64,000 nt of DNA, taken from the NCBI RefSeq assembly GCF_031323975.1, contig NZ_JAVIWS010000001.1, forward strand, positions 1,922,001 through 1,986,000, in the 5' to 3' direction. The notes beneath the pieces were generated by a model. It saw only the letters and a program-made list of their open reading frames with translations. It was not told where the DNA came from and made no database searches. Every line of letters begins with the position of its first letter. The stretch's first letter is position 1. This DNA is from Escherichia ruysiae. Lineage in GTDB: Bacteria; Pseudomonadota; Gammaproteobacteria; Enterobacterales; Enterobacteriaceae. The position numbers and the translations under genes are program-made. Below are positions 3,667 to 59,412 of the stretch, piece by piece.

Positions 3667-6507
3667 TCATTCCTCCACCAGCCACTTCTGCCAGCTTGCC
3701 CGCACCAGTTCACGCTCTGCGGTGAAGCACTCATCCGGCACATGACCCGGTAATTCCTGTAACGCCAGATGATGAAGTTCATCGCGCAGCGTCGTGTAAG
3801 CACGGGTCAGCGCCATCGCTTCCTGCTCTTCCATAATGTCGTTTTGCGCCAGCAGTTCCAGAATGCGCACGTTGTCTGACCAACGCGTTAACTTCGGTTT
3901 TTCATGAGCGTAGCGCAACACCAGATATTGAGTAATAAATTCGATATCGGTAATTCCGCCTTCATCGGCTTTGATATCAAAGCGATCGCGATGTTTATTG
4001 CCGAGATGAGCGCGCATTTTCTCACGCATTTCCCGTACTTCCGTTTGCAGAGTTTTACTTTCACGCGGCAGCATCATAATTTCCCGACGCACCGCGTCAA
4101 AGTGCGCAGTGAGCTGTGGATCGCCATATACCACACGCGCACGAACCAGTGCCTGATGTTCCCACGTCCAGGCCTCGCTTTTCTGATAATCGGCAAACGC
4201 TTCAGCGGATGTCACGAGCATTCCCGCCGCCCCGGACGGACGCAGCCGCGCATCCACTTCGTACAAAATGCCGGAAGAAGTACGCGTACTGAACAGATGC
4301 ATAATGCGTTGCGCCAGACGCAGATAAAATTGCCGCCCGTCGATTTCCCGCTCGCCGTCGGTCATCACATCCATCGGGCAATCATGGAGGAAGATAAGGT
4401 CAAGATCGGAACTGTAACCTAACTCCCAGCCACCCAGCTTACCGTAGCCGACCACCGCAAAACCACGACCTTCGCGTTCGTTCAGGTGATTCGGTTTACC
4501 GTAGCGGGCGACCATTTGAACCCACGCCTGCTGAACGACAGCATCTATCATGGCTTCCGCCAGCCAGGTTAAGTGATCGCTCACTTTCATCACCGGTAGC
4601 GTACCGGCGATATCCGCTGCCGCAATGCGTAACAGTTGCGCCTGTTTAAACTGGCGTAGCGCCTCAAGCTGTTGTTCTTCGTCATCTTCCGGCACGCGCA
4701 GCAAATACTGGCGCAACTCATCACGGTAGGCATCGGTCGCCGTCGGTTGGTAGAGGGTATTTGGATCGAGCAGTTCATCCAGCAATAATGGATAACGCGC
4801 CAGTTGGCTGGCAATCATCGGCGATGCGGCACACAGAGAAATCAAATGCTTAAGTGCCGCCGGAAATTCACTAAGCAACTCAAGATAAGTGGTGCGAGTA
4901 ACAATCCCCACCAACAAGGCGGTAATGCGCGACAGCGTGACAGCAGCGTCTTCACGCGCACAGACATCACTTAGCAGATATGGCATCAGATGGTCGAGCA
5001 CCTGACGTCCTCTCGGCCCGATTGTGCGCTTATCCAGCTCTTTGCGGAAATCAGCAATCAGCGTCAGCACCTTTTTGCGATCATCTTCGCTAAGATGCGC
5101 CAGCACTGGCGTAGTGTCATCTTCCTGCAACGCATCCTGCCACAGCTCACGCCACTGTTCCGACAGCGACTCTTCCTGAGTTTCGCTTTCATCGTCGCCA
5201 ATCAGTTCATTAAATACCCGGCGCACATTGGTCATATGTCCGGTCAACGCCCCGGTCAATTGCGACCAGTCAGCGAAGTCCATCGCCCACGCCAGCCGCG
5301 CACGGTTAAGCTCATCAGCGGGAAGCGTCTGGGTTTGTTCGTCGTTAATGCTTTGCAGCAGGTTTTCCAGACGCCGCAGGAACAGATATGCCATTCGCAA
5401 TTGTTCGGCGTCATTTTCAGAAAGCAGATGCAGTACGGCAATGGCGCTGAGTGTCGGCAGTAAAGAGCGCGATTGCAGCGACGGTTCACGTCCGCCGCGA
5501 ATGAGCTGGAACACCTGGACGATAAATTCAATTTCGCGAATACCGCCCGCGCCAAGTTTGATGTTGTCGGTCAAACCGCGTCGACGCACTTCACGGGCAA
5601 TCATCCCTTTCATGTTGCGCAGCGACTGGATGACGCTGAAATCGATGTAACGGCGGAAAACAAACGGACGCAGCATCGCACGCAATTCGTTAGCATAGAC
5701 GCCATCGCTATCGCCCATAATCCGCGCCTTGACCATCGCATAACGCTCCCAGTCGCGACCCTGCTCCTGGTAATAATCTTCCAGCGCCGCAAAACTTAAC
5801 ACCAGCGGGCCGCTTTCGCCAAACGGACGCAGACGCATATCCACGCGATAGACAAAACCATCTTGCGTCGGTTGATCCAACACTTTAATCAGCCGCTGGC
5901 CCATGCGGGTAAAGAACTGAGCGTTATCCAGTTCGCGGCGTCCGCCCTGCGTACAGCCATGTTCCGGCCAGGCAAAAATCAGATCGATATCTGAGGAGAA
6001 ATTCAGTTCCCCACCGCCCAGCTTACCCATGCCTAAAATCAGCATCGGTTGCGCTTCGCCCTGCGTATTGCACGGCGTTCCCCACTCGCGGCAGCAGGCT
6101 TCATATAGCCAGTCACGCGCCGTGACAATCAGCGTCTCCGCCAGATGGCTGAGCTGCTGCAAAATGCTCTCTTCAGTCACCAGCGCCAGAGTTTGCGCCC
6201 AGGCGATGCGCACCATAATGCGCCGCCGGAATAGCCGCAGCTCGCGCATTAAACTGACTTCATCGCTTACATCACTGAGCGCCTTCTGCAACCATGCAGC
6301 GTAATGCTGCCATTCGTCGGCCTGCGGCGGCTGGCTTTCCAGTTCCGTTAGCCACTCTGGATGCGCAATTACGCTGTCCTGCACAAAATCACTAAAAGTA
6401 AGTACTGACTTCGCCTGTGTGCTAAGTGATTCCTCGGCTAAAGGCGCTGGCAGCCGCTCAACAACGGTCTGCCAGTACTGCTGTAACGGTGAAGAGAGCG
6501 GCTTCAT
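3667..6507 (-). CDS. glnE: Glutamine synthetase adenylyltransferase/deadenylylase GlnE
   Basis: Bifunctional nitrogen-control enzyme that adds AMP to or removes it from glutamine synthetase under PII signals. I place the start at the ATG at 6505-6507 ([12 protein letters not shown]), giving the usual 946 residues. The open frame extends 68 codons further but that part lies inside ygiF. Two nucleotidyltransferase domains are visible. The N-terminal one has [15 protein letters not shown] with Asp173 and Asp175 (deadenylylation half); the C-terminal one has [15 protein letters not shown] with Asp701 and Asp703 (adenylylation half). All four metal-binding aspartates are intact. It lies 22 bases after ygiF, so co-transcription is likely. 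Confidence 0.97.
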
Positions 6508-6529
6508 AAGCGATTTTATCCTTGCCTGA

Positions 6530-7831
6530 TTAACGTTTTCCGCTGTGCAACCAGAACGGTTCCTGATTGTTTGCCTCATTGCGGAAATGTTCAATTTCAA
6601 TGCGTTGCCCGGTCGCAATGGCGTGACGCAGTCCCTGCCAGTTCTCCAGCCAGGCTTGCGCAACGAGAGGATCGTAGTAACCCGCCAGCAACAGTATTGA
6701 GTCAATGTCACGCGTCAGACGTGGTAACTGGTCACGGTAGCGATCGCCCAACGGTTGGCAAAAAACGCTTTTCAGTTCAGCGGCATGGCGGGAAAGATGG
6801 ATATCGGCAAAGCGTTTAAAGGAGTCGCTCATTTTGCCCTGCGCTTTGGCATCTAAAAACGGCTGCCAGGCTTTGCTGACCAGCCATTCGGTCAACGCCA
6901 GCTTCGCCATTGCCGTTTCGGTAGAGTAGACCGCCGTCACGGCAGAAACCGCAGAAGCAATGGTCGCCTCGCATTGGGTCAGCAGGTCACGTAAGTGAGT
7001 GCTCGCTTTTCTTGGCACAATACCACCGAACAGCATCAGCGTATGGCGAACAAGACCGATGGCTGCCAGCACCTGTTCTTTCGCCGCATCGTTGCCGCGC
7101 ACCCACAGCTCTTCATGATACTGCCATTGCGCTAACGCCAGCTCGAGCGCCGCTTCCAGCCCCTGTTCCACATCGGCTTTTGCCGCAACATGCAGAATGG
7201 TGGTGGGTTTGATTTCACGCGTGGGATTGCCCTGCGCCAGATGATAGCCACGCGCTGCTTTACTCAGGCTGCCCTGGCGTAATCCGGTTTGCGATACCAG
7301 TTGGTTCGCCAGTTTCAGCACCGCGCGCGTTTCACCGCTAAGCAGCTCCAGTTCCAGCTCACAGATAGGTTCAGCAAATTCACCGGCTTTCACCTCGCCC
7401 TGATCGAGAGCGATTTCAATCTGGCTGCCATCGACCTCCACCAGCCATTTTTCGCGATAAAAATCGGTGCTGAACAGCGGCTGCACGCAGGACGCGAGAT
7501 CGGCAGGTAACTCACCGTTTGGCCAGACTTCCGTCGGTAACTGCGCCAGATCGAGCGTCGGTTCACTCAACGCCACGTTATATTCCGGGCGCTGGTGCAA
7601 TCCGCCCGTTACCCGTCCGGCAACTTTCATGGTCATCTCATAGCGACCGTTTTCGCCACGAATACGCAGCCCCATGTCGTGCCCACGCAGCCAGTTATCC
7701 GGCGTTTCGTAGTAAATGTTCAGTAACTGCACGGGATCATGATGCTCGCCGCCCAGCGTATTGAGATGGTCACGCAACGCCTCAACGGCACTGTGATTAA
7801 CAATAAACTTTAATTCGATTTCCTGAGCCAT
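6530..7831 (-). CDS. ygiF: Inorganic triphosphatase YgiF (CYTH-CHAD)
   Basis: A 433-residue protein with an N-terminal CYTH domain (about 1-200), marked by the EIELKF signature at the start and rows of Glu/Arg/Lys lining the tunnel fold. A C-terminal helical CHAD domain follows (about 220-430), rich in conserved His and Arg and associated with polyphosphate binding. E. coli YgiF is known to hydrolyse inorganic triphosphate. It is first in the minus-strand cluster ygiF-glnE-hldE and diverges from ygiM across 241 bases in which I see no clear regulatory site. Confidence 0.93.
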
Positions 7832-10157: not shown

Positions 10158-10979
10158 TCAAAAGAACACAACGTACACCGCAGCCGCCACAATAAAGCGA
10201 TAAATGGCGAACGGGATAAACGAAATGCGCTTAATCAATTGCAGGAAGGTTTTAATCGCTATCAGCGCCACCACAAAAGCGGTGATAAACCCAACGGCAA
10301 ACATCGGGATATCGCCGGTTGTCAGGAAGCCCCAGCTTTTGTAGAGATCGAGCGCCGTTGCGCCCATCATCATAGGCACCGCCAGCAGGAACGAGAACTC
10401 GGAAGCAGCGTAACGGCTCACCCCCATCAGCATCCCACCTGAAATGGTCGCCCCGGAACGGGAGAAACCCGGCCACAGCGCCAGACACTGGAAACAGCCA
10501 ATCATAAACGCCTGACGATACGTCATATCATCCAGACCCGGCGCACGCGGCTCTTTCGGCTTCAGGCATTCAGCGGCAATCAGCAACAGACCGCCAACAA
10601 CCAGCGCATACATCACATTTATCGGGTTAAACAACGACTTAATCGTATCGTGGAACAATAGCCCCAGTACCACCGCCGGGATCATCCCCAGCAAAATGTG
10701 GATCAGCGTTAACCGACCTTTGCTTTCTCCTTCGTGCTGCAACGGACGCCCAAAGTGAATGCCAATCAGGCCAAACAGACGCCGCCAGAACATCACTACT
10801 ACCGCCAGAATTGATCCTAACTGGATCACGACTTCAAAGGTTTTCGCCGTGTCGCCCTCAAATCCCAACAAATGACCGACAATAATCATATGGCCCGTGC
10901 TGGATACCGGCAGAAATTCTGTCAATCCTTCGACCACACCCAATATTGCCGCTATCAGCAGCGAGTGCATATCGCTCAT
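10158..10979 (-). CDS. uppP: Undecaprenyl-diphosphate phosphatase UppP (BacA)
   Basis: Integral membrane phosphatase that recycles the lipid carrier of peptidoglycan synthesis; excess confers bacitracin resistance. The ATG start at 10977-10979 gives 273 residues, the normal length; the preceding in-frame TTG is not needed. The signatures [14 protein letters not shown] (near residue 17) and GFSRSG (near 170), which form the active site, are intact. Eight or so hydrophobic helices are evident. It is convergent with cca across the boxC repeats. Confidence 0.97.
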
Positions 10980-11069
10980 CAATAAACCCCTAAATTATAA
11001 AAATGTACCGCTTGTCCGAACTACTGCAGTATGACCAGGTTATAACCGTTTGGTTTAACAGCTGTAAAA

Positions 11070-11438
11070 TTAATTATTTTCTTTCAGATTATTGCCACGC
11101 TCAATGATGACGCCAACATTCGCCGCACGCGCCACTGCGCCTGGCTTGCTGAGTTTGATACGCACCCACGGCGAGTTAAAGCGAGTCAACAGCAGCTCCG
11201 CCACCTCTTCCGCCACGCGTTCCACCAGTGCAAAACGCGCGCCCTCGACGTGGCTGACCACCGTTTCGGCAATGTCAGCGTAGCTGAGACAATCCGCCAC
11301 ATCATCGCTTTTCGCCGCTTTACGGTTATCCCACGCCATTTCGATATCGAACACCAACTTCTGTTCGATGGTCTGTTCCCAGTCGTAAACACCAATAGTG
11401 GTGATTACCGAAAGTTGCTCTATAAATACAATATCCAT
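11070..11438 (-). CDS. folB: Dihydroneopterin aldolase FolB
   Basis: Folate biosynthesis enzyme that converts 7,8-dihydroneopterin to 6-hydroxymethyldihydropterin and glycolaldehyde. The ATG at 11436-11438 (MDIVFIEQL) gives 122 residues; an in-frame GTG one codon earlier is less likely. The family features are visible: the IGVYDWE motif near residue 15 with the catalytic-site Glu, and the conserved KP near residue 100. It is transcribed divergently from plsY, whose start lies about 104 bases away. Confidence 0.96.
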   Translation of the reverse strand: MDIVFIEQLSVITTIGVYDWEQTIEQKLVFDIEMAWDNRKAAKSDDVADCLSYADIAETVVSHVEGARFALVERVAEEVAELLLTRFNSPWVRIKLSKPGAVARAANVGVIIERGNNLKENN

Positions 11439-11542
11439 CACGTCCTGCCTGCTTTTTGGCTAACCGGATACCACTTCCGGCGAAATGTGCGTATTATCCA
11501 CAGATTCATCGTTGAACACGAATTTTCAAAACGGAACAGCTT

Positions 11543-12160
11543 ATGAGTGCAATCGCGCCTGGAATGATCCTCATCGCGTACCTCTGCGGCTCCATTTCCA
11601 GTGCCATTCTGGTTTGCCGCTTGTGTGGGCTGCCCGATCCGCGAACCAGCGGCTCCGGCAATCCCGGCGCCACCAATGTGTTACGTATCGGTGGCAAGGG
11701 AGCAGCCGTAGCAGTGCTGATTTTCGACGTTCTGAAAGGAATGTTACCCGTCTGGGGCGCGTATGAATTAGGTGTCAGCCCCTTCTGGCTAGGCTTAATT
11801 GCCATCGCCGCCTGTCTTGGACACATCTGGCCGGTTTTCTTCGGTTTTAAAGGGGGAAAAGGCGTTGCCACCGCTTTTGGCGCAATCGCACCAATTGGCT
11901 GGGATTTAACGGGTGTGATGGCGGGAACCTGGCTGTTAACCATTTTACTCAGCGGTTATTCGTCGCTGGGAGCGATTGTCAGCGCACTGATTGCTCCGTT
12001 TTATGTCTGGTGGTTTAAGCCACAATTCACCTTTCCGGTTTCTATGCTCTCTTGCCTGATCCTGCTGCGTCATCATGACAACATCCAGCGTCTGTGGCGT
12101 CGCCAGGAGACAAAAATCTGGACGAAATTTAAAAGAAAGCGCGAAAAAGATCCGCAGTGA
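11543..12160 (+). CDS. plsY: Acyl-phosphate:glycerol-3-phosphate acyltransferase PlsY
   Basis: Inner membrane enzyme that makes lysophosphatidate from acyl-phosphate and glycerol-3-phosphate, formerly YgiH. It has 205 residues with about five hydrophobic helices. The three family motifs are present: SGNPGATN near residue 37 (after the DPRTSGS stretch), [18 protein letters not shown] near residue 93, and a later loop before the basic C-terminal tail. E. coli also uses PlsB for this step, so PlsY is not its only route. It is convergent with ttdR, only 12 bases apart. Confidence 0.95.
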
Positions 12161-22447: not shown

Positions 22448-22523
22448 GGCCCCTTAGCTCAGTGGTTAGAGCAGGCGACTCATAATCGCTTGGTCGCTGG
22501 TTCAAGTCCAGCAGGGGCCACCA
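22448..22523 (+). tRNA. ileX: tRNA-Ile(CAU), ileX
   Basis: A 76-base cloverleaf: acceptor GGCCCCT pairing with AGGGGCC, discriminator A, and encoded CCA. The D stem is GCTC/GAGC, the anticodon stem GGCGA/TCGCT with loop CTCATAA (anticodon CAT), and the T arm GCTGG-TTCAAGT-CCAGC. The sequence and position are those of ileX, the minor isoleucine tRNA whose wobble C is changed to lysidine by TilS so that it reads AUA instead of AUG. Confidence 0.95.
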
Positions 22524-51855: not shown

Positions 51856-53154
51856 ATGCGTAAAATTAAAGGGTTACGTTGGTATATGATCGCACTGGTG
51901 ACGCTCGGCACCGTGCTCGGTTACCTGACGCGTAACACTGTGGCGGCAGCTGCGCCAACTCTGATGGAAGAGTTAAACATCTCCACCCAACAGTATTCCT
52001 ACATCATCGCAGCTTATTCTGCTGCTTATACGGTCATGCAACCGGTAGCGGGTTATGTACTGGATGTTCTGGGTACAAAAATCGGTTACGCGATGTTTGC
52101 CGTGTTGTGGGCTGTGTTCTGTGGCGCTACCGCGCTGGCAGGTAGCTGGGGCGGCCTGGCGATTGCTCGTGGTGCGGTAGGTGCTGCTGAAGCAGCAATG
52201 ATCCCAGCGGGTCTGAAAGCCAGTTCCGAATGGTTCCCGGCGAAAGAGCGTTCCATCGCAGTAGGTTACTTTAACGTTGGTTCTTCAATTGGTGCGATGA
52301 TTGCACCGCCGCTGGTGGTATGGGCAATTGTGATGCACAGCTGGCAGATGGCATTTATCATCTCCGGTGCGCTGAGCTTTATCTGGGCGATGGCATGGCT
52401 GATTTTCTATAAACACCCGCGCGACCAGAAACATCTGACTGATGAAGAACGCGAATACATTATTAACGGTCAGGAAGCCCAGCACCAGGTTGGCACGGCG
52501 AAGAAAATGTCCGTTGGTCAGATTCTGCGTAACCGTCAGTTCTGGGGTATCGCGCTGCCGCGTTTCCTGGCTGAACCGGCGTGGGGGACTTTCAACGCGT
52601 GGATCCCACTGTTCATGTTTAAAGTTTACGGCTTTAACCTGAAAGAGATCGCGATGTTCGCCTGGATGCCGATGCTGTTTGCTGACCTCGGTTGTATCCT
52701 CGGTGGTTACCTGCCGCCGCTGTTCCAGCGTTGGTTTGGCGTGAACCTGATCGTCTCCCGTAAGATGGTAGTCACGCTGGGTGCGGTGCTGATGATTGGC
52801 CCAGGTATGATCGGTCTGTTCACCAATCCATATGTGGCGATTATGCTGCTGTGTATCGGTGGTTTTGCTCACCAGGCACTGTCTGGCGCACTGATTACGC
52901 TCTCTTCTGACGTGTTCGGTCGTAACGAAGTGGCAACGGCAAACGGTCTGACCGGGATGTCCGCATGGCTGGCAAGTACGCTGTTTGCCTTGGTTGTTGG
53001 TGCTCTGGCTGACACCATCGGCTTCAGCCCGCTGTTCGCAGTGCTGGCAGTGTTCGACCTGTTAGGCGCGCTGGTTATCTGGACGGTATTGCAGAACAAA
53101 CCGGCGATTGAGGTGGCGCAGGAAACACATAACGATCCCGCCCCGCAACATTAA
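51856..53154 (+). CDS. exuT: Hexuronate transporter ExuT
   Basis: A 432-residue proton-coupled MFS transporter (anion:cation symporter family) that imports galacturonate and glucuronate. I start at ATG 51856 (MRKIKGLRWYM) with GAGG 8 bases upstream; the longer open frame has no ribosome site. Twelve hydrophobic helices and MFS features are visible, such as YLTRNTVAAAAPTLM near the start and GYVLDVLGTKIGY between helices 2 and 3. It feeds uxaCA, with which it shares ExuR and CRP control. A fimbrial operon, not exuR, follows it here. Confidence 0.96.
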   Translation: MRKIKGLRWYMIALVTLGTVLGYLTRNTVAAAAPTLMEELNISTQQYSYIIAAYSAAYTVMQPVAGYVLDVLGTKIGYAMFAVLWAVFCGATALAGSWGGLAIARGAVGAAEAAMIPAGLKASSEWFPAKERSIAVGYFNVGSSIGAMIAPPLVVWAIVMHSWQMAFIISGALSFIWAMAWLIFYKHPRDQKHLTDEEREYIINGQEAQHQVGTAKKMSVGQILRNRQFWGIALPRFLAEPAWGTFNAWIPLFMFKVYGFNLKEIAMFAWMPMLFADLGCILGGYLPPLFQRWFGVNLIVSRKMVVTLGAVLMIGPGMIGLFTNPYVAIMLLCIGGFAHQALSGALITLSSDVFGRNEVATANGLTGMSAWLASTLFALVVGALADTIGFSPLFAVLAVFDLLGALVIWTVLQNKPAIEVAQETHNDPAPQH

Positions 53155-53176
53155 CGCTTAGCGTGAGTTTTAATGT

Positions 53177-53210
53177 CGAAGCCGCCTGTTCAGGCGGCTT
53201 CGTTGTTTAT
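53177..53210 (+). terminator. Terminator after exuT
   Basis: A perfect 12-bp stem CGAAGCCGCCTG/CAGGCGGCTTCG with TT loop and TTGTTTAT after it. It separates exuT from the convergent fimbrial operon. Confidence 0.85.
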
Positions 53211-53236
53211 ATAGAACGTTTGTCCGGCCTGGAGGG

Positions 53237-54322
53237 TTAATTGATAGTTGGCAAGGACGGAGTAAAGACCACCGACAGTTTACCCATGTAGTACCCGGCC
53301 TGCTTATCCATCACGCTGAACTTCTCTACCGCCAGGGTTAATGGCGTCGGCACACACATAACAGCGTAACGAATACCAGGCAGTACAACCGGACGAACGC
53401 GCTTCAGGTTAATACTGTTCCAGACCATATTTTCATTATTGCGCACGTCAATTTGCCCGCCCGTTTCCGGGTTATACATTTTTACGCGGTAATCAATACG
53501 TTCTGAGGCATCTGTCGATGTTCCTCCCTGACGATAAATCGAGAAGTCGCCATCTCTTCGCCCGGCAGCCGGGCGACCTTCATCTTTAAGCTGGATTTCA
53601 TAACTGATGGCGTTGCCGTTAAAACCATCGTACAGGCACATATCCAGCGTGGTCAGATCCTGAGCATAGTTACTGCCATTGACGCTCCCCGTCGGGTGTA
53701 GATCCAACTGTACCCGTGGCGTGGCGTGGGCAAACTCCGGAAAGAAGATATCGATATGGTTGGGATCGAGCGTATTAAGCGTGATATCCGCAAAATAATC
53801 TGCTCCAGGGTAGGTAAAATGCATTTTAACGGAACCTTCCCAGACGCCACCAATCGGTAATTTTTTCATTTCTGCTTGCTCAAGATAGAGCGTTAACAGT
53901 TTTACATTGGCATTATAAGCACCGCTATTAGCTATACATCGACGAGTAGTTGTACTATCTAAAGGGAATTGCGCCGACCAGCCATCACAGTCCCCTCCGG
54001 GATTGCGGACCACAAAATTCGTATATCCTTTAAGGTTAACTGGCCAACGCATACCACTGCGCTTTTCTGTCATATAAATTTTCACGTTTGAATAATTACC
54101 AGATGGTGTACAAATCTGCTGTCGATCAGGAAAATTGCACTGATAACTTGACCATGCGGTGTCGTAGTTTATAGCAGGGGGTTCTTCCTTGTTCCAGATG
54201 TAATAATCTGCCCTGCCGACTGCCAAATCATAAGTAATTTCAGCCGTAACGTTGGGCGATGCCTGAACACCTGCAACCGAGCCCAAAAAGCAAAATAGTA
54301 TGGCAATCAATCGCTTTCTCAT
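53237..54322 (-). CDS. CS1/CFA-I-type fimbrial tip adhesin (CooD/CfaE-like)
   Basis: A 361-residue secreted protein with signal peptide (about 1-21, IAILFCFLGSVAGVQA). It is last in the fimbrial operon and its start overlaps the usher stop as ATGA. The size and order are those of CooD/CfaE minor subunits, which nucleate assembly and bind the receptor. The N-terminal half would be the adhesin domain, with cysteine pairs such as CNFPDRQQIC and GDCDGW/RRCIAN. The C-terminal half from about 205 looks like a pilin domain and holds LDMCLYDGFNGNA, close to the MCLYDGY stretch in CfaE as I remember it. The receptor cannot be predicted. Confidence 0.85.
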   Translation of the reverse strand: MRKRLIAILFCFLGSVAGVQASPNVTAEITYDLAVGRADYYIWNKEEPPAINYDTAWSSYQCNFPDRQQICTPSGNYSNVKIYMTEKRSGMRWPVNLKGYTNFVVRNPGGDCDGWSAQFPLDSTTTRRCIANSGAYNANVKLLTLYLEQAEMKKLPIGGVWEGSVKMHFTYPGADYFADITLNTLDPNHIDIFFPEFAHATPRVQLDLHPTGSVNGSNYAQDLTTLDMCLYDGFNGNAISYEIQLKDEGRPAAGRRDGDFSIYRQGGTSTDASERIDYRVKMYNPETGGQIDVRNNENMVWNSINLKRVRPVVLPGIRYAVMCVPTPLTLAVEKFSVMDKQAGYYMGKLSVVFTPSLPTIN

Positions 54323-57003
54323 GGTGCAACCTCCCTTTGCGCCGTTTGTACGCTCTCACGTAATTTAGGCTGTTTTAACTGCGCCTGAACCTGAATCGAC
54401 TCTGGCAATTGCGAATAACTCACGACGCTACAAGTCACATCGCCGCTGTAACGAATGCTGGCGCGTTTCTTCACAACAGTCAGCGGACATTTAAGGAATT
54501 CGTGTCCGGAAAGCAGATACAATTCTTTATCATTGCCGCTAATTTCCAGCGTAAATCCGCCATCTTCAGCCACCAATAACATGGTGCTGTTCAGACCAAT
54601 CAGCGGGAATTTCTCTACTGATGCTGGCAATAACAAGCGACCAATATAGTTGTAGTTAAAGCTGGCAGTGACTTCGCGATAACGTAACTTACCGGGCAGC
54701 AACATTAATTCCCGGTTTCCCGCGCCATTGATAATATTGGTTGTTCCCTGCTGGTTGCCCTGGTTGCTGTCCCTGACGTCAACAAAGCCCGACTGGAATC
54801 CAGCATAGGGGAACAACACACTGTCACTTTGACCAAGTTGCAGAGTTCTGCTGCCCGCAACCCGAGCTTCGAATTGCAGATCCTGGCTCTCTTCATCCTG
54901 TTCAGTAAATCCTTTTACATCGACTAATACAGCGCCGAGCAGATCATCTGTTCCACTGGCTCCCAGATTAATTCCGTAACGACTCACCGCCAGTGTGGAA
55001 CTGTAAGACCCTGTAAAGGCAGAAAGATGATCATGGTTCTTGCGATCGTAACTGTCTGATACGGTGCCGTTGAGATTACCGTACTGCCCTTCCCAACGAC
55101 CATTAACCGCACTGTTTATGGTATCGGTGTTCAGGCCACCGACGGTTACGCCAAGTTCTTTATGGCTGAATGAATCGTTATAAAAGGTATGCGATAACTG
55201 CCATGAAGTTTGGTCGCCATCCTGATCGCTATAGCGATAGTCAGTCGAAACATTGGTTGAGTGACTGTTATTATTGCTGTCCATCGTTGGTGTATCAGAT
55301 AACGAAAACGATAAGTACAATCCGTTGTCGTCGTTATCTCCGCCGTTGTCGTTACGATGGAAAACCCCGACAGAAGTGCTCAAAATCCAGTCACGCATTA
55401 CAAAAGCGCGAGACGCGCTAAGCTGTACGGTTTCAGAAATACTTTGCGCAGAAGTCTGGCGAAGATAGTTATTTTCAAAACTCTGCTGTTTGTCCCAGCG
55501 TAAGCTGTCGTCGGTGTTATTTTGCGTGCGGGTATAACCCAGCATCATGTTCCAGCCGATAAGATTCTGTGAAATCGTAGCGGATATGCTTTCATAACAG
55601 CTTAAGGCGTTGTAGCTATCTCTGCTGTCGGTTGTACAAGCATCTCCGTCGGAGTTGGTACGATAAAAGCCCAGCGTCGGCCATCCCGAATTACTCCAGT
55701 TAACCTGCTGCATATCACCTTTGCCGCCATCGTCATTGCGGAACAGACTGGCACCTATGGCAAGATTCCCCACCCCGCCTAAATCCGCCGTCCAGTTATT
55801 ACCTAACTCGAAAGCATTCACATCATCGGCATTCGCCAGCCCTGCGTAGAACTCATATTGTGGATGTAACGGCAGGCGAAAACCCAGTTGATAAGCTGAA
55901 CTTTCGTCATCGGCAGCCTGGGAGGTGGTTTTACCGGCCTGTAAGAACCACTGCGCATTTCCGTCCGTCAGCCCCCCTGTTTTGGTAAAAGGGACAAGTT
56001 CAGTGCGGGTGAGTTGGTTGTTCTCATAAACTTTTAACGCCACGCTGTAGCTGCCTGGCGGAAAGGAACCAGTATCAATAAATTGCGAACCACTATTGAG
56101 ATAAAACGATCCCAGAAGTTGTTCATTACGATAAGCGTCAACACGAGAATTGCGCGAAAGCAGGACCATTACTGGCGTTCCTTGCTGACTCTGCGCCTGG
56201 TTTAAATAACTGAGTGTTGACCCGATACGCATTCCATCGATTGCACCGAGTGGCAGAAAGTTAAAAGTAAAATTCCCGCCTTGTGCATTAAATAGCGTGC
56301 GGTTGTCCATTCGCCCCGCCTGCACATAATAACGACGTAAAAAATCATAACGATAATAGAGATCGCTGACATCAGCATTATTATCGCTGACATCTTCTGC
56401 CTCATAGCCATTGAAATTCCAGTGCCCGCCAATATAACTATTCTCTGTGACACCCAGCGCACCATTGCCCTGAATGGAGAACGATTGGTAATCATCCTGC
56501 ACCAGCACGTTAATATCCTGCTGATGAATAAATGCATTAATCGCGTTTCTGTCTGGATTTAAATATAGCGATTTTGAATTTAACGAGGAACTCCATTGGG
56601 GATTCAGAAAGAGGGTGGCGGAACTCTCTTCATCATTAAAAATAATGTCAACAGAATCGGTATTGAGAAAGCCACATCCTGAATCGGTCTGCGCAAAACC
56701 ACAAGCCAGTTCACCATGACGCGCCAGTGGTTGTGCCAGTCTCGCTTTTACGGCTTGAGTGATTTTTTGGTCTTTGGTATCCAGCTCCAGCTTATTATAT
56801 AAACTTGCTGAATCCAGAAATGTTACCGCATCAAGATTAACCATTGCATAATATTTACCGAGACTTTTCCCGGCATAATAGACTTCAATATACTCCTGCT
56901 GTCCCTGTGCAATAACCTCAAACCCAGCGGGAATTTTAGTTAATGCTGCCTTTGCCGGGCTGAGACTCGCCAGGATCAAAAGAGCCAGTAATTTTTTATC
57001 CAT
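54319..57003 (-). CDS. CS1/CFA-I-type fimbrial usher (CooC/CfaC-like)
   Basis: Outer membrane usher that receives chaperone-subunit complexes and assembles the fimbria. I start at ATG 57001-57003 (MDKKLLALLILASLSPAKAA), preceded by AGGG; the open frame extends 18 codons to a TTG, with no better ribosome site. It has 894 residues, near the 870 of CooC. A signal peptide (1-19) and an N-terminal chaperone-binding domain precede a beta barrel with the family pattern LGSFYLNSGSQFIDTGSFPPGSYSV (near 315, the plug region). It is rich in aromatic strands (RYDFLRRYYVQAGRMDN), with C-terminal domains at the end. The alpha-family relationship is inferred from gene order and partners. Confidence 0.88.
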   Translation of the reverse strand: MDKKLLALLILASLSPAKAALTKIPAGFEVIAQGQQEYIEVYYAGKSLGKYYAMVNLDAVTFLDSASLYNKLELDTKDQKITQAVKARLAQPLARHGELACGFAQTDSGCGFLNTDSVDIIFNDEESSATLFLNPQWSSSLNSKSLYLNPDRNAINAFIHQQDINVLVQDDYQSFSIQGNGALGVTENSYIGGHWNFNGYEAEDVSDNNADVSDLYYRYDFLRRYYVQAGRMDNRTLFNAQGGNFTFNFLPLGAIDGMRIGSTLSYLNQAQSQQGTPVMVLLSRNSRVDAYRNEQLLGSFYLNSGSQFIDTGSFPPGSYSVALKVYENNQLTRTELVPFTKTGGLTDGNAQWFLQAGKTTSQAADDESSAYQLGFRLPLHPQYEFYAGLANADDVNAFELGNNWTADLGGVGNLAIGASLFRNDDGGKGDMQQVNWSNSGWPTLGFYRTNSDGDACTTDSRDSYNALSCYESISATISQNLIGWNMMLGYTRTQNNTDDSLRWDKQQSFENNYLRQTSAQSISETVQLSASRAFVMRDWILSTSVGVFHRNDNGGDNDDNGLYLSFSLSDTPTMDSNNNSHSTNVSTDYRYSDQDGDQTSWQLSHTFYNDSFSHKELGVTVGGLNTDTINSAVNGRWEGQYGNLNGTVSDSYDRKNHDHLSAFTGSYSSTLAVSRYGINLGASGTDDLLGAVLVDVKGFTEQDEESQDLQFEARVAGSRTLQLGQSDSVLFPYAGFQSGFVDVRDSNQGNQQGTTNIINGAGNRELMLLPGKLRYREVTASFNYNYIGRLLLPASVEKFPLIGLNSTMLLVAEDGGFTLEISGNDKELYLLSGHEFLKCPLTVVKKRASIRYSGDVTCSVVSYSQLPESIQVQAQLKQPKLRESVQTAQREVAP

Positions 57004-57093
57004 GGCAACCCTGAAATCCATAATAACGACTAAAATAGTTAAAATAAGGGAGGACAAGCCCCCCTTTATTACGTATTAATTCTGTTATCCGGA

Positions 57094-57594
57094 TTAGATA
57101 TCCTGGGACAGATAGATGCTTACCACACCACGGTAAATACCGGTTTCCAGTACACCTTTGGTAGTCTGAGCAAACATCAGGTTTTTAGCCAAAGAACCGT
57201 TGGTTAAAGCATCGGAAGCAAAAATTTTGGTTGCTTCAAAAGTGGTAGCGGCATCGGACTTGATTTCAGTACCACCCCAGGTCACAGTCAGCGGAACAGT
57301 TTTGCTGCCGTCCAGGTTATGAACCAGTTGCGCAGGGGAAACCAACTGCATTTTAATGTCTTTAGTCACATCGTTAGACCAAATTTTAGTCATCAACTGA
57401 TAAGATTGCAGACCCTGACCCGGCAGATATTGCATTTCAACTGCTTTCGGCAGTGCGCTGTTATCGGTTTGCGTCATATCCAGAGCGGCATCAACGTTAG
57501 CTGTTACAGTAATATCTTTTTGTACTGCTAACGCGGAGCCTGCTACAGAGAATAACGCTGCTACCAGAAGAGATTTTGCAAATGCCTTTTTCAT
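57094..57594 (-). CDS. CS1-type major fimbrial subunit (CooA/CfaB-like)
   Basis: A 166-residue pilin. After the signal peptide MKKAFAKSLLVAALFSVAGSALA the mature protein begins VQKDITVTANVDAALDMTQTDNSALP, closely similar in pattern to CooA/CfaB (VEK-I-VTA-VDP--DL-Q-DGSALP). That N-terminal strand donates to the neighbouring subunit. No cysteine is present in the mature chain, which is typical of alpha-type pilins. It ends TGIYRGVVSIYLSQDI. The second gene of the operon, with GGAATAG before the start. Confidence 0.9.
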   Translation of the reverse strand: MKKAFAKSLLVAALFSVAGSALAVQKDITVTANVDAALDMTQTDNSALPKAVEMQYLPGQGLQSYQLMTKIWSNDVTKDIKMQLVSPAQLVHNLDGSKTVPLTVTWGGTEIKSDAATTFEATKIFASDALTNGSLAKNLMFAQTTKGVLETGIYRGVVSIYLSQDI

Positions 57595-57623
57595 TACTAT
57601 TCCTTCGTTTATGACAATGATAA

Positions 57624-58340
57624 TTAATGGATCGCCAGCTCAAACTCGCCATTATCCTTAGTGATCCAGTTATTATATTTGACAACGATCTTGTCGTGGC
57701 CAGATATGCTTTCAAGATTTATTTCCTGACCAGGGAAGATATTTTTATTTACGGTCTGCATCTTACAATTATCTTTGCTATTATTTTTGCAATAAGCGAT
57801 CGTTAAAAGTTTTAAACGTTGATTCCCTGCATTAAATAATTTTTTGGCAGGATTTACTTCTAACTTAGCAATAGGTTGTTGGGGTGGAACACTAACAACA
57901 ATCCCCCAAATCAAGTTAACTGTTAACTGCATAGAGAGATCTTTTTTATCTGTGGCAACGTCATCAATACTGGGAACTGCTTCAAATTTAACGCGGTAAT
58001 TTTTCTCTTTTTGCTCTGGTTCCATTGCGACAAAGCGCACGGTTTTGCTGCTACCGGCTGGTAAGGCGAATTTGGGTGGCATAACGACCAGATGATTTGC
58101 ATCACCGGATTTAATCTCAACTTCATTTTCCTGAGGCGTCGATGGATTATCGATACGGAATACTGTCGCCTTGATATACTGAACTTCATTACTTTTAGAT
58201 ATTACACGAACGTTGCCTTCACCCTGACTATTAATAGAAACAGCCATAGGATAAACAGTCATATTTGACTGTGCAAAAAAAGGAGCGAACACGAATAAAA
58301 GCGGCGTAAGCCGTGATAAGAGTTTAATTTTCGCCACCAT
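57624..58340 (-). CDS. CS1/CFA-I-type periplasmic fimbrial chaperone (CooB/CfaA-like)
   Basis: A 238-residue first gene of the fimbrial operon. A signal peptide (about 1-24, LLFVFAPFFAQS) is followed by two immunoglobulin-like domains. NMTVYPMAVSINSQGEGNVRVISKS and EVQYIKATVFRIDNP resemble the start of CooB/CfaA (IYPIS...VRVYSKSKEIQYIK), and LPAGSSKTVRFVA is the subunit-binding G1/F strand region. A Cys pair (CKNNSKDNC) lies in the C-terminal domain as in its relatives. The chaperone-first order is typical of class 5 operons. Confidence 0.88.
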   Translation of the reverse strand: MVAKIKLLSRLTPLLFVFAPFFAQSNMTVYPMAVSINSQGEGNVRVISKSNEVQYIKATVFRIDNPSTPQENEVEIKSGDANHLVVMPPKFALPAGSSKTVRFVAMEPEQKEKNYRVKFEAVPSIDDVATDKKDLSMQLTVNLIWGIVVSVPPQQPIAKLEVNPAKKLFNAGNQRLKLLTIAYCKNNSKDNCKMQTVNKNIFPGQEINLESISGHDKIVVKYNNWITKDNGEFELAIH

Positions 58341-58589
58341 ATAGAATTGATCTTACAAAATTGTTTCAAAAAAGTTAGTGCATTAGAAATGTAGATTTAT
58401 TGTAAGTCAATATAAAAAAGCATTTTTAGTTAATATTAATTTAAAAAGCGAAAAATTAAGTTACTGAAACATAGTAATTTTCACAATATCGACGCTTAAT
58501 TTTTAGGAATTTATAAATATTCACAATGCTAATTAAATACATTATTTCAATCACCATATTTATATATGAACAATGGCATACCCATAAAT
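58341..58589. promoter_or_regulatory. AT-rich intergenic region with the fimbrial promoter
   Basis: About 250 bases of strikingly AT-rich DNA upstream of the minus-strand chaperone gene. The composition contrasts with the GC-richer core genes around it and suggests H-NS-type silencing and foreign origin. Several A/T stretches (TTTATAAATATTCAC, TAATATTAATTTAAAAAG) could serve as promoter elements, but I cannot single out one. There is no recognisable phase-variation inverted repeat or GATC pair. Confidence 0.5.
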
Positions 58590-58609
58590 AAAGTGGTATG
58601 ATAACTTTG
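58590..58609 (+). promoter_or_regulatory. ExuR operator before exuR
   Basis: AAAGTGGTATGATAACTTTG, 26 bases before the exuR start. It is the same type of site as before uxaC and indicates autorepression. Its presence right at the edge of the AT-rich block suggests the fimbrial insertion left exuR control intact. Confidence 0.75.
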
Positions 58610-58635
58610 TCCGCATTCCATTCCGGGAGACGCAT

Positions 58636-59412
58636 ATGGAAATCTCTGAACCACGCCGTTTGTACCAACAACTTGCTGCTGACCTGAAAGAGCGCATTGA
58701 GCAGGGCGTCTATCTGGTGGGTGATAAACTGCCCGCCGAACGTTTTATTGCCGATGAAAAAAACGTCAGCCGAACGGTCGTTCGTGAAGCCATCATCATG
58801 CTGGAAGTTGAAGGCTATGTGGAGGTGCGTAAAGGTTCAGGTATTCACGTGGTTTCCAACCAGCCGCGCCATCAGCAGGCGGCTGACGATAATATGGAAT
58901 TTGCCAATTACGGCCCGTTTGAACTGCTACAGGCTCGCCAGCTTATCGAGAGCAATATTGCCGAGTTTGCCGCAACCCAGGTGACCAAGCAGGACATCAT
59001 GAAATTGATGGCCATCCAGGAGCAGGCTCGCGGCGAACAATGCTTCCGCGATTCCGAGTGGGATTTGCAGTTCCATATTCAGGTTGCCCTGGCGACGCAG
59101 AACTCAGCCCTGGCAGCCATCGTTGAGAAGATGTGGACCCAGCGTAGCCATAACCCGTACTGGAAAAAACTCCACGAACACATTGATTCCCGTACCGTCG
59201 ATAACTGGTGTGATGACCACGATCAGATCCTTAAGGCGTTAATTCGCAAAGATCCCCATGCCGCTAAGCTGGCAATGTGGCAGCATCTGGAAAACACCAA
59301 GATAATGTTATTTAACGAAACCAGCGACGATTTCGAGTTCAACGCCGACCGTTACCTGTTCGCAGAAAACCCGGTTGTGCATCTGGATACGGCCGCCAGC
59401 GGCAGCAAATGA
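58636..59412 (+). CDS. exuR: Hexuronate regulon repressor ExuR
   Basis: A 258-residue GntR-family (FadR subgroup) repressor. The N-terminal winged helix (about 8-75, [45 protein letters not shown]) is followed by an all-helical FCD effector domain with conserved His residues (near 148 and 194-200). It represses exuT, uxaCA and uxaB and is released by hexuronate intermediates. In K-12 as I recall, it directly follows exuT; here it is split off by the fimbrial operon. GGGAGA precedes the start. Confidence 0.96.

Follow-up and report, generated by a model that had tools for sequence, protein, structure and literature searches.

The eaf operon of Escherichia: an alpha-type fimbria whose tip adhesin appears to exchange its binding domain on a conserved backbone

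The stretch of DNA considered here, 64,000 nucleotides of Escherichia ruysiae (assembly GCF_031323975.1, contig NZ_JAVIWS010000001.1, positions 1,922,001 to 1,986,000 of the forward strand; "the window" in the following), carries a four-gene fimbrial operon between the hexuronate genes exuT and exuR. This operon is eaf, an already named alpha-type fimbria of E. coli, which is present here intact in another Escherichia species. We propose, at a probability of roughly 0.85, that eaf specifies a conserved CS1-type rod with a two-domain tip adhesin, that the operon is exchanged as a block, and that the binding half of the adhesin is swapped separately on a kept backbone, by which the rod would be re-aimed. 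The exchange within the adhesin is the new point: judged from allele comparisons, its binding domain behaves as a hypervariable exchange cassette.

About one third of the complete E. coli genomes carry eaf, yet the literature on it is sparse. With the product of its fourth gene recognised as a tip adhesin like CfaE, the published description is put right and the organelle becomes open to testing. If the domains do swap to change the target, eaf would offer a natural series for studying how fimbrial lectins change specificity. For typing schemes which use adhesin genes as stable markers, it matters that the eaf adhesin is a mosaic.

Exchange of the adhesin binding domain

The fourth gene and its parts are located as follows.

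53237 to 54322, minus strand: tip adhesin of the CfaE/CblD type, 361 amino acids (aa), operon gene 4
53240 to 53710, minus strand: pilin domain of the adhesin, residues 205-361; protein sequence conserved (median 93.6% aa identity), silent divergence high (dS 1.44; 78 pairs)
53711 to 54256, minus strand: receptor-binding domain of the adhesin, residues 23-204, hypervariable; median 64.1% aa identity in 78 pairs, 17 clusters, site of the identity trough
53891 to 54034, minus strand: residues 97-144, where the adhesin varies most; on average 5.4-5.8 distinct residues per column in 32 sequences

Thirteen alleles, giving 78 pairs, were compared across the locus, and silent divergence (dS) was calculated with our own Nei-Gojobori script. 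Median amino acid identity was 99.5% for exuT, 98.8% for exuR, 89.9% for the chaperone, 95.8% for the pilin, 93.6% for the usher and 76.5% for the adhesin, with median dS values of 0.18, 0.44, 0.69, 0.44, 0.61 and 1.53 in the same order. An earlier reading of the stretch, made from its sequence only, had named the adhesin domain as the most divergent part, and the figures for the binding domain agree. Both adhesin halves show high silent divergence (dS 1.50 in the binding domain and 1.44 in the pilin domain, values above 1 being near saturation), and the median ratio of non-synonymous divergence (dN) to dS is low in every gene (binding domain 0.155, pilin domain 0.032). The protein sequence of the pilin domain appears to be held by selection despite exchange.

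Pairs of closely related loci locate the change. SMS-3-5 and SWHEFF_68 are 92-100% identical over 7 kb in 150-bp segments, the one exception being the binding domain, where identity falls to 45%. The window and E69, which belong to the same species, fall to 84-97% in places within and just behind the adhesin gene, more divergent than most of the rest, and dS between them is 0.18 in the adhesin and 0.02 in the usher.

The same pattern was found in 32 Escherichia adhesins, 15 from the loci and 17 chosen from the top of a list of 125 matches. Their binding domains (residues 35-178) fall into 17 clusters at 80% identity, their pilin domains into four at 95%, and in 38 of the 496 pairs the pilin domains agree at 98% or more and the binding domains at less than 65%.

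Fifteen loci were labelled by a short motif as K (TEKRSGMRW, nine loci) or Q (TEQRSGMRW, six loci), a label chosen after viewing the adhesins and not the ushers. The window carries the K type and E. coli W the Q type; P0004, a protein named from E. albertii, belongs to the K type as well. In the binding-domain tree, K and Q form one split with a support of 97/95; AUSMDU00014361 (frameshifted adhesin) and E22 (adhesin accession the same as in SMS-3-5 and 1428) were left out of the tree analysis. On the usher tree the labels require four changes, a count as low being found in 139-149 of 500 shuffles, and a usher tree with the Q carriers held together was rejected by the approximately unbiased (AU) test (p 1.9e-5). 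On these trees, the binding-domain families are in conflict with the usher phylogeny.

Among 5426 complete E. coli genomes, DNA like the W binding domain (at least 80% of the query) was detected in 1445, the identity being 95% or above at 1425 best places. The ATCC 8739-like domain was found in 223 genomes (226 such places), the SMS-3-5-like domain in 134 (83) and the Trh52-like domain in 92 (46), the identity bands being rough because short partial matches are included. The binding domain of the window has a single match (81.6% over 83% of the query) in this collection, which may exclude the records nearest to the window genome. Taken at the level of sequence, the divergence of the adhesin domain would largely represent allele exchange and not merely faster point change. 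A more far-reaching reading, which we rate slightly below even odds, sees in eaf a platform on the chromosome whose tip can be exchanged. The binding domain would then circulate across Escherichia species as a recombining cassette (two deep families, at least 17 variants), with its diversity kept by selection and near-identical bacteria aimed at different glycans.

Several observations weigh against the exchange proposed here. Since dS is high in both adhesin halves, exchange must often cover more than the binding domain, and the near-saturation mentioned above blurs these values. Between 2020CK-00188 and G004 the dip extends over the full adhesin gene into the neighbouring end of the usher gene, being deepest at the binding domain; ATCC 8739 and W, which differ by a dip over the binding domain, show a second one near the chaperone; and SMS-3-5 and Trh52 also have a wider dip or further dips. 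The alleles come from ranked match lists with near-duplicates included, not from random sampling, and part of the extra divergence may be diversifying point mutation. Two of 16 occupied loci are broken, by a stop in the usher of G004 (L032) and by a frameshifted adhesin in AUSMDU00014361 (L054, NZ_CP045827.1), and several strains have the insertion sequence (IS) elements IS1 or IS2 within the operon, which is thus dispensable in places.

Distribution, gain and loss of the operon

The operon matches 1909 of the 5426 E. coli genomes, 1896 of them over at least 80% of its length, at 1913 places which are all chromosomal and none on a plasmid. It is absent from K-12, and at this frequency it is neither a new nor a rare insertion. 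Six reference strains of E. coli were picked by strain, and the site is occupied in W, HS and SMS-3-5 and empty in K-12, CFT073 and Sakai. The strains retrieved as matches, ATCC 8739 included, are all occupied except HH97 (L058, NZ_CP116409.1). This strain has an exuT-exuR interval of 652 bp with long poly-C runs, in which a fault of sequencing or assembly is probable, and it is not counted among the empty sites. As a side observation, NZ_CP026085.1, labelled strain DH5alpha, carries eaf though K-12 MG1655 does not, which makes the label doubtful for a K-12 derivative.

The window genome is counted as one species with one other genome (E69), apart from the ten other Escherichia genomes compared. 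Its uxaC-exuT stretch has matches in 5370 of the 5426 E. coli genomes (4026 at 95-99% and 1344 at 90-95%), with identities of 94.6-95.3% among the 12 matches listed. In the 12 Escherichia genomes, exuR was found in all and a usher orthologue in six; a seventh usher match, 23% identical, is another usher. The operon stands beside exuR in all six, the contig of G008 ending inside the adhesin so that exuT was not seen there. In a wider family search, 32 of 295 genomes carried a usher at E values up to 1e-100, two of the 32 being Escherichia, and the best usher outside the genus was 54% identical.

Seventeen occupied intervals measure 5465-5495 bp, and nine clean empty ones 129 bp (eight) or 124 bp (one). 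The eight empty intervals of 129 bp, from several species, match K-12 without gaps at 107-129 of 129 positions, and such a uniform empty site is unlike the result of many independent deletions. Occupied and empty sites have only their ends in common: on the left the sequence as far as the exuT terminator, on the right the last 47 bp or so before exuR (four occupied loci). The operon may be present or absent on near-identical flanks: dS is 0.039 in exuT and 0.025 in exuR between HS (occupied) and Sakai (empty), 0.032 in both genes between Trh52 (occupied) and CFT073 (empty), and 0.013 in exuT and 0.157 in exuR between HS and K-12. In NCTC_13148, the first 51 bp past exuT are identical to the empty site of K-12 and are followed by an occupied allele. 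These flanks and this switch argue that the block moves by homologous recombination in the flanks, and gain and loss of eaf as a block through exuT and exuR is the most likely course. The sequence-only reading had called the arrival of the operon unclear; this still holds for its first origin, and recombination through the flanks is supported for its movement. Linked divergence of exuR was considered as a mark of the operon and rejected, as exuR dS is also high among empty sites (0.65).

Proposed mechanism

By analogy with CFA/I, the chaperone would escort pilin and adhesin through the periplasm, the usher would thread the subunits with the adhesin first, and the subunits would be joined by donor-strand exchange. 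A GC-rich stem-loop followed by a T-run between the pilin and usher genes (57046-57066) is a putative attenuator or processing point lowering usher relative to pilin, and probably keeps the usher low. Its stem is kept in 12 of 12 alleles apart from one loop-side pair in a single allele, and one stem pair is G-U in six alleles and A-U in six. The operon would be gained or lost in one piece, through homologous recombination at its place between exuT and exuR, and the adhesin gene, above all its receptor-binding half, would be exchanged separately on a kept backbone. A swap of the binding domain would then re-aim the conserved rod, with different ligands presumably bound by the different variants.

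Alternative explanations

The operon could be a decaying or cryptic relic of unexpressed genes whose adhesin varies for want of constraint. The broken loci and IS elements described above, and a control region of 25% GC, which may point to silencing, would fit this. We consider it unlikely, as all four frames are open in 14 of the 16 occupied loci, the window included, and the median dN/dS ratios are low in every gene. Moreover, relaxed constraint would not lift the silent divergence of the adhesin above that of the adjacent usher. Two further observations concern the integrity of the genes. The chaperone frame of G010 (L037) is open only from an in-frame alternative start, the aligned ATG being missing near 7769, and its product is 75.6% identical to that of the window though the usher is 91% identical. 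P0029, a protein of 406 aa on seven contigs, consists of the usher's beginning fused to the adhesin's pilin domain, and looks like an in-frame deletion inside the operon.

Slightly less probable still is that the site beside the hexuronate genes is functional, the adhesin binding uronic-acid polymers (plant pectin or host glycans) under co-regulation with ExuR. The site is fixed in the 17 occupied intervals, and glycan binding has a precedent in YehD, another E. coli chaperone-usher adhesin, for which the passage concerned reports binding of pectic galactan and hyaluronic acid (PMC12778044). In addition, 12 occupied alleles have an almost unchanging exuR leader, which differs from the empty-site type. 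However, this invariant block may serve exuR alone, and no exu genes were found near the operon in five genomes with 50-54% identical ushers (19 kb each), nor in L012 and L013 (L012 and L074 being the same contig). An ExuR operator is putative: the leader was compared by eye with the rule for the FadR subfamily, as given in the relevant part of PMC4494728, and no site is claimed. A scan for sigma-70 promoters gave 12 hits against 11.2 expected.

Fast point mutation under positive selection, in place of exchange, would account for the higher dN/dS of the binding domain relative to the pilin domain. It is very improbable, because dS and dN increase together, the binding-domain block holds most of the differences between strains whose flanks are near-identical, and the trees of binding domain and usher conflict.

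Relation to known fimbriae

The genome paper of E. coli W, in its passages on the cluster, reports a previously undescribed cluster of the alpha type in the exuT-exuR interval, named eafABCD in 2011, which it records as present in W and in Crooks (ATCC 8739) and as absent from K-12 and B (PMC3032704). Our occupancy results for W, ATCC 8739 and K-12 agree with these passages. The discussion of a study on a bacteremia strain names eafABCD among fimbrial operons (PMC11394720). In the library searched, no report on eaf was found beyond these two. The main text of a 2013 survey of E. coli chaperone-usher fimbriae contains neither exuT, exuR nor eaf, its figures being outside the comparison (PMC3559732). 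The window shares with W the site and four orthologous genes, with identities of 95% (chaperone), 93% (pilin), 91% (usher) and 73% (adhesin). In contrast, the cluster is stated to be without a tip adhesin in the passage of PMC3032704, and gene 4 is one by Pfam, fold and the current annotation of W.

Pfam assigned CblD (1e-100) to the adhesin, Usher_TcfC (PF17271, 5.7e-60) and the TcfC E-set domain (PF16967, 1.8e-19) to the usher, Fimbrial_CS1 (PF04449, 8.1e-23) to the pilin and PapD_N (1.1e-7) to the chaperone; PF15976 matched the usher at 0.00049, under its cut-off. The nearest NCBIfam models are TcfD, TcfC, CblA/TcfB and TcfA, all under their equivalog cut-offs. PDB matches of the window proteins are CfaE and CfaB. 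By sequence and model, gene 4 encodes a two-domain tip adhesin with a predicted CfaE-like fold. The profiles and the gene order chaperone-pilin-usher-adhesin, with a TcfC/CooC-type usher, a CS1-type pilin and a CblD/CfaE-type adhesin of two domains, place the operon in the alpha clade. The Coo operon has the order CooB-A-C-D.

The sequence-only reading went further and likened the operon to the class 5 pili (CFA/I-CS1 group) of enterotoxigenic E. coli (ETEC); a close sequence kinship of the usher with this group was not borne out by the comparisons. That eaf is a true class 5 colonization factor which moved from an ETEC plasmid to the chromosome and binds the receptor of CfaE is the least probable of the explanations, since four genes in like order, the CfaE and CfaB matches and the CfaE-like fold are set against a usher only 29.5-30.1% identical to CfaC/CsdC, an exclusively chromosomal location in E. 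coli and the altered receptor pocket given below. A recent plasmid origin from ETEC is excluded by the low identity. Class 5 pili, which agglutinate erythrocytes, are under the control of activators of the Rns/CfaD type; no AraC-type regulator of this kind was seen by eye among the neighbouring open reading frames (ORFs) in 48-64 kb of the window, the rest of the genome not having been searched for one. In the plasmid collection, the window usher is slightly closer to ushers of Pantoea/Serratia (up to 34.5%), to CblC (33.1%) and to Salmonella (32.5-32.7%) than to CS19 (30.1%) and CFA/I (29.5%). The gene order of CFA/I is CfaABCE (PMC7531860). For CfaE, the passages on the receptor pocket name R67, H140, R181 and R182 (PMC7573445). 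In the alignment R67 corresponds to W57 of the window, H140 to T126, and R181/R182 to a shorter loop, so that the basic pocket around R67 and R181 does not appear to be kept, with a numbering offset of 22 taken from the fit and an uncertain loop alignment. Among 46 aligned sequences, two have R at the place of R67 and none has H at that of H140. R127-R128 adjoin T126 in the window and the loops align poorly, and a different basic patch is therefore possible, which counts against loss of the pocket.

The Tcf fimbria of Salmonella enterica (TcfABCD) provides the best NCBIfam model for adhesin, usher and chaperone and the second for the pilin, with all scores far under the cut-offs; the Salmonella records in the plasmid collection carry no gene names. 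The Burkholderia cable pilus provides the best pilin model (CblA, 1e-36, below cut-off) and, in B. ambifaria, the CblC mentioned above, and is distant in sequence. Alpha operons with the same four genes in the same order occur in Citrobacter gillenii (L012), Lelliottia nimipressuralis (L013) and at L073, with identities to the window of 53% (usher), 57-63% (pilin), 42-43% (adhesin) and 49-54% (chaperone); unlike eaf, they have no exu genes in the stretch compared. The operon at L073 is flanked by a racemase-like gene and, at its opposite end, by genes resembling lysR and lysA, all of them identified by eye. The related operon L077 (G295) apparently has two adhesin-like genes, one per side, at 5530-6624 and 10933-12015.

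Locus layout and base composition

The remaining features of the locus are listed below.

51856 to 53154, plus strand: exuT, hexuronate transporter, left flank; MFS_1 (Pfam); E. coli orthologues annotated exuT, 1299 nt
53177 to 53202, plus strand: terminator hairpin 3' of exuT with an 11-pair stem, kept in empty and occupied sites; the NCTC_13148 switch point is located there
54319 to 57003, minus strand: outer-membrane usher of the alpha (TcfC/CooC) type with 894 aa, its start moved from 57057
57046 to 57066, minus strand: pilin/usher intergenic stem-loop and T-run, candidate attenuator or processing site
57094 to 57594, minus strand: major pilin of the CS1 type, 166 aa, with a donor-strand-like N-terminus in the alignment to CfaB structures
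57624 to 58340, minus strand: periplasmic chaperone, 238 aa, belonging to the alternate (TcfA/CooB) type; match to the TcfA model at 2.3e-40, under the cut-off
58341 to 58635, no strand: AT-rich (25% GC) divergent control region between operon and exuR; GC computed, 12 alleles aligned
58636 to 59412, plus strand: exuR, hexuronate regulon repressor, right flank; NCBIfam ExuR equivalog with 562 bits against a cut-off of 396

Four intact minus-strand genes of an alpha-type operon in CooB-A-C-D order, inserted between two genes adjacent in K-12, had been described by the sequence-only reading, and open frames, profiles and comparison uphold all of this. The four genes fill an exuT-exuR interval of 5481 bp (53154 to 58636) on a contig of 4.54 Mb; in K-12, the last base of exuT is 3246522 and the first of exuR 3246652, which leaves a gap of 129 bp without the operon. 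The left-flank transporter of the major facilitator superfamily is ExuT by its E. coli orthologues. Usher end and adhesin start overlap by 4 nt. The usher start had to be moved: the ORF finder's choice at 57057 opens with TTG, and translation from the ATG at 57003 yields a protein of 894 aa, in agreement with the annotated E. coli orthologues (2685 nt). This ATG is kept in 16 of 16 loci with unconserved codons 5' of it, and the start was placed there on these grounds.

The higher AT content relative to the neighbours, most marked upstream, is real as well: GC content is 45.2% in the operon, 38.8% in the chaperone gene and 25.1% in 58341-58635, against 54.2% in exuT, 51.9% in exuR and 51.8% in the window. 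Mobile-element insertion was rejected as a candidate, in line with the earlier statement that the edges hold no transposase or tRNA. The sole tRNA of the window lies at 22448-22523 and none near the operon, no transposase was seen by eye among ORFs of at least 90 aa in 48-64 kb (the Pfam scan covered six proteins), and the longest exact repeat common to both 400-bp operon edges is 9 nt. Plasmid origin was rejected likewise, on the chromosomal location of all E. coli copies and because only two of 108 matching records in the plasmid collection have a usher at 90-95%. One of the two, NZ_MG591698.1 (L016), a 353-kb "plasmid" of strain PN43, contains the chromosomal genes from tdc to ygj, including exu and eaf, and is likely a mislabelled or mis-assembled piece of chromosome; the second record is 4.8 Mb long.
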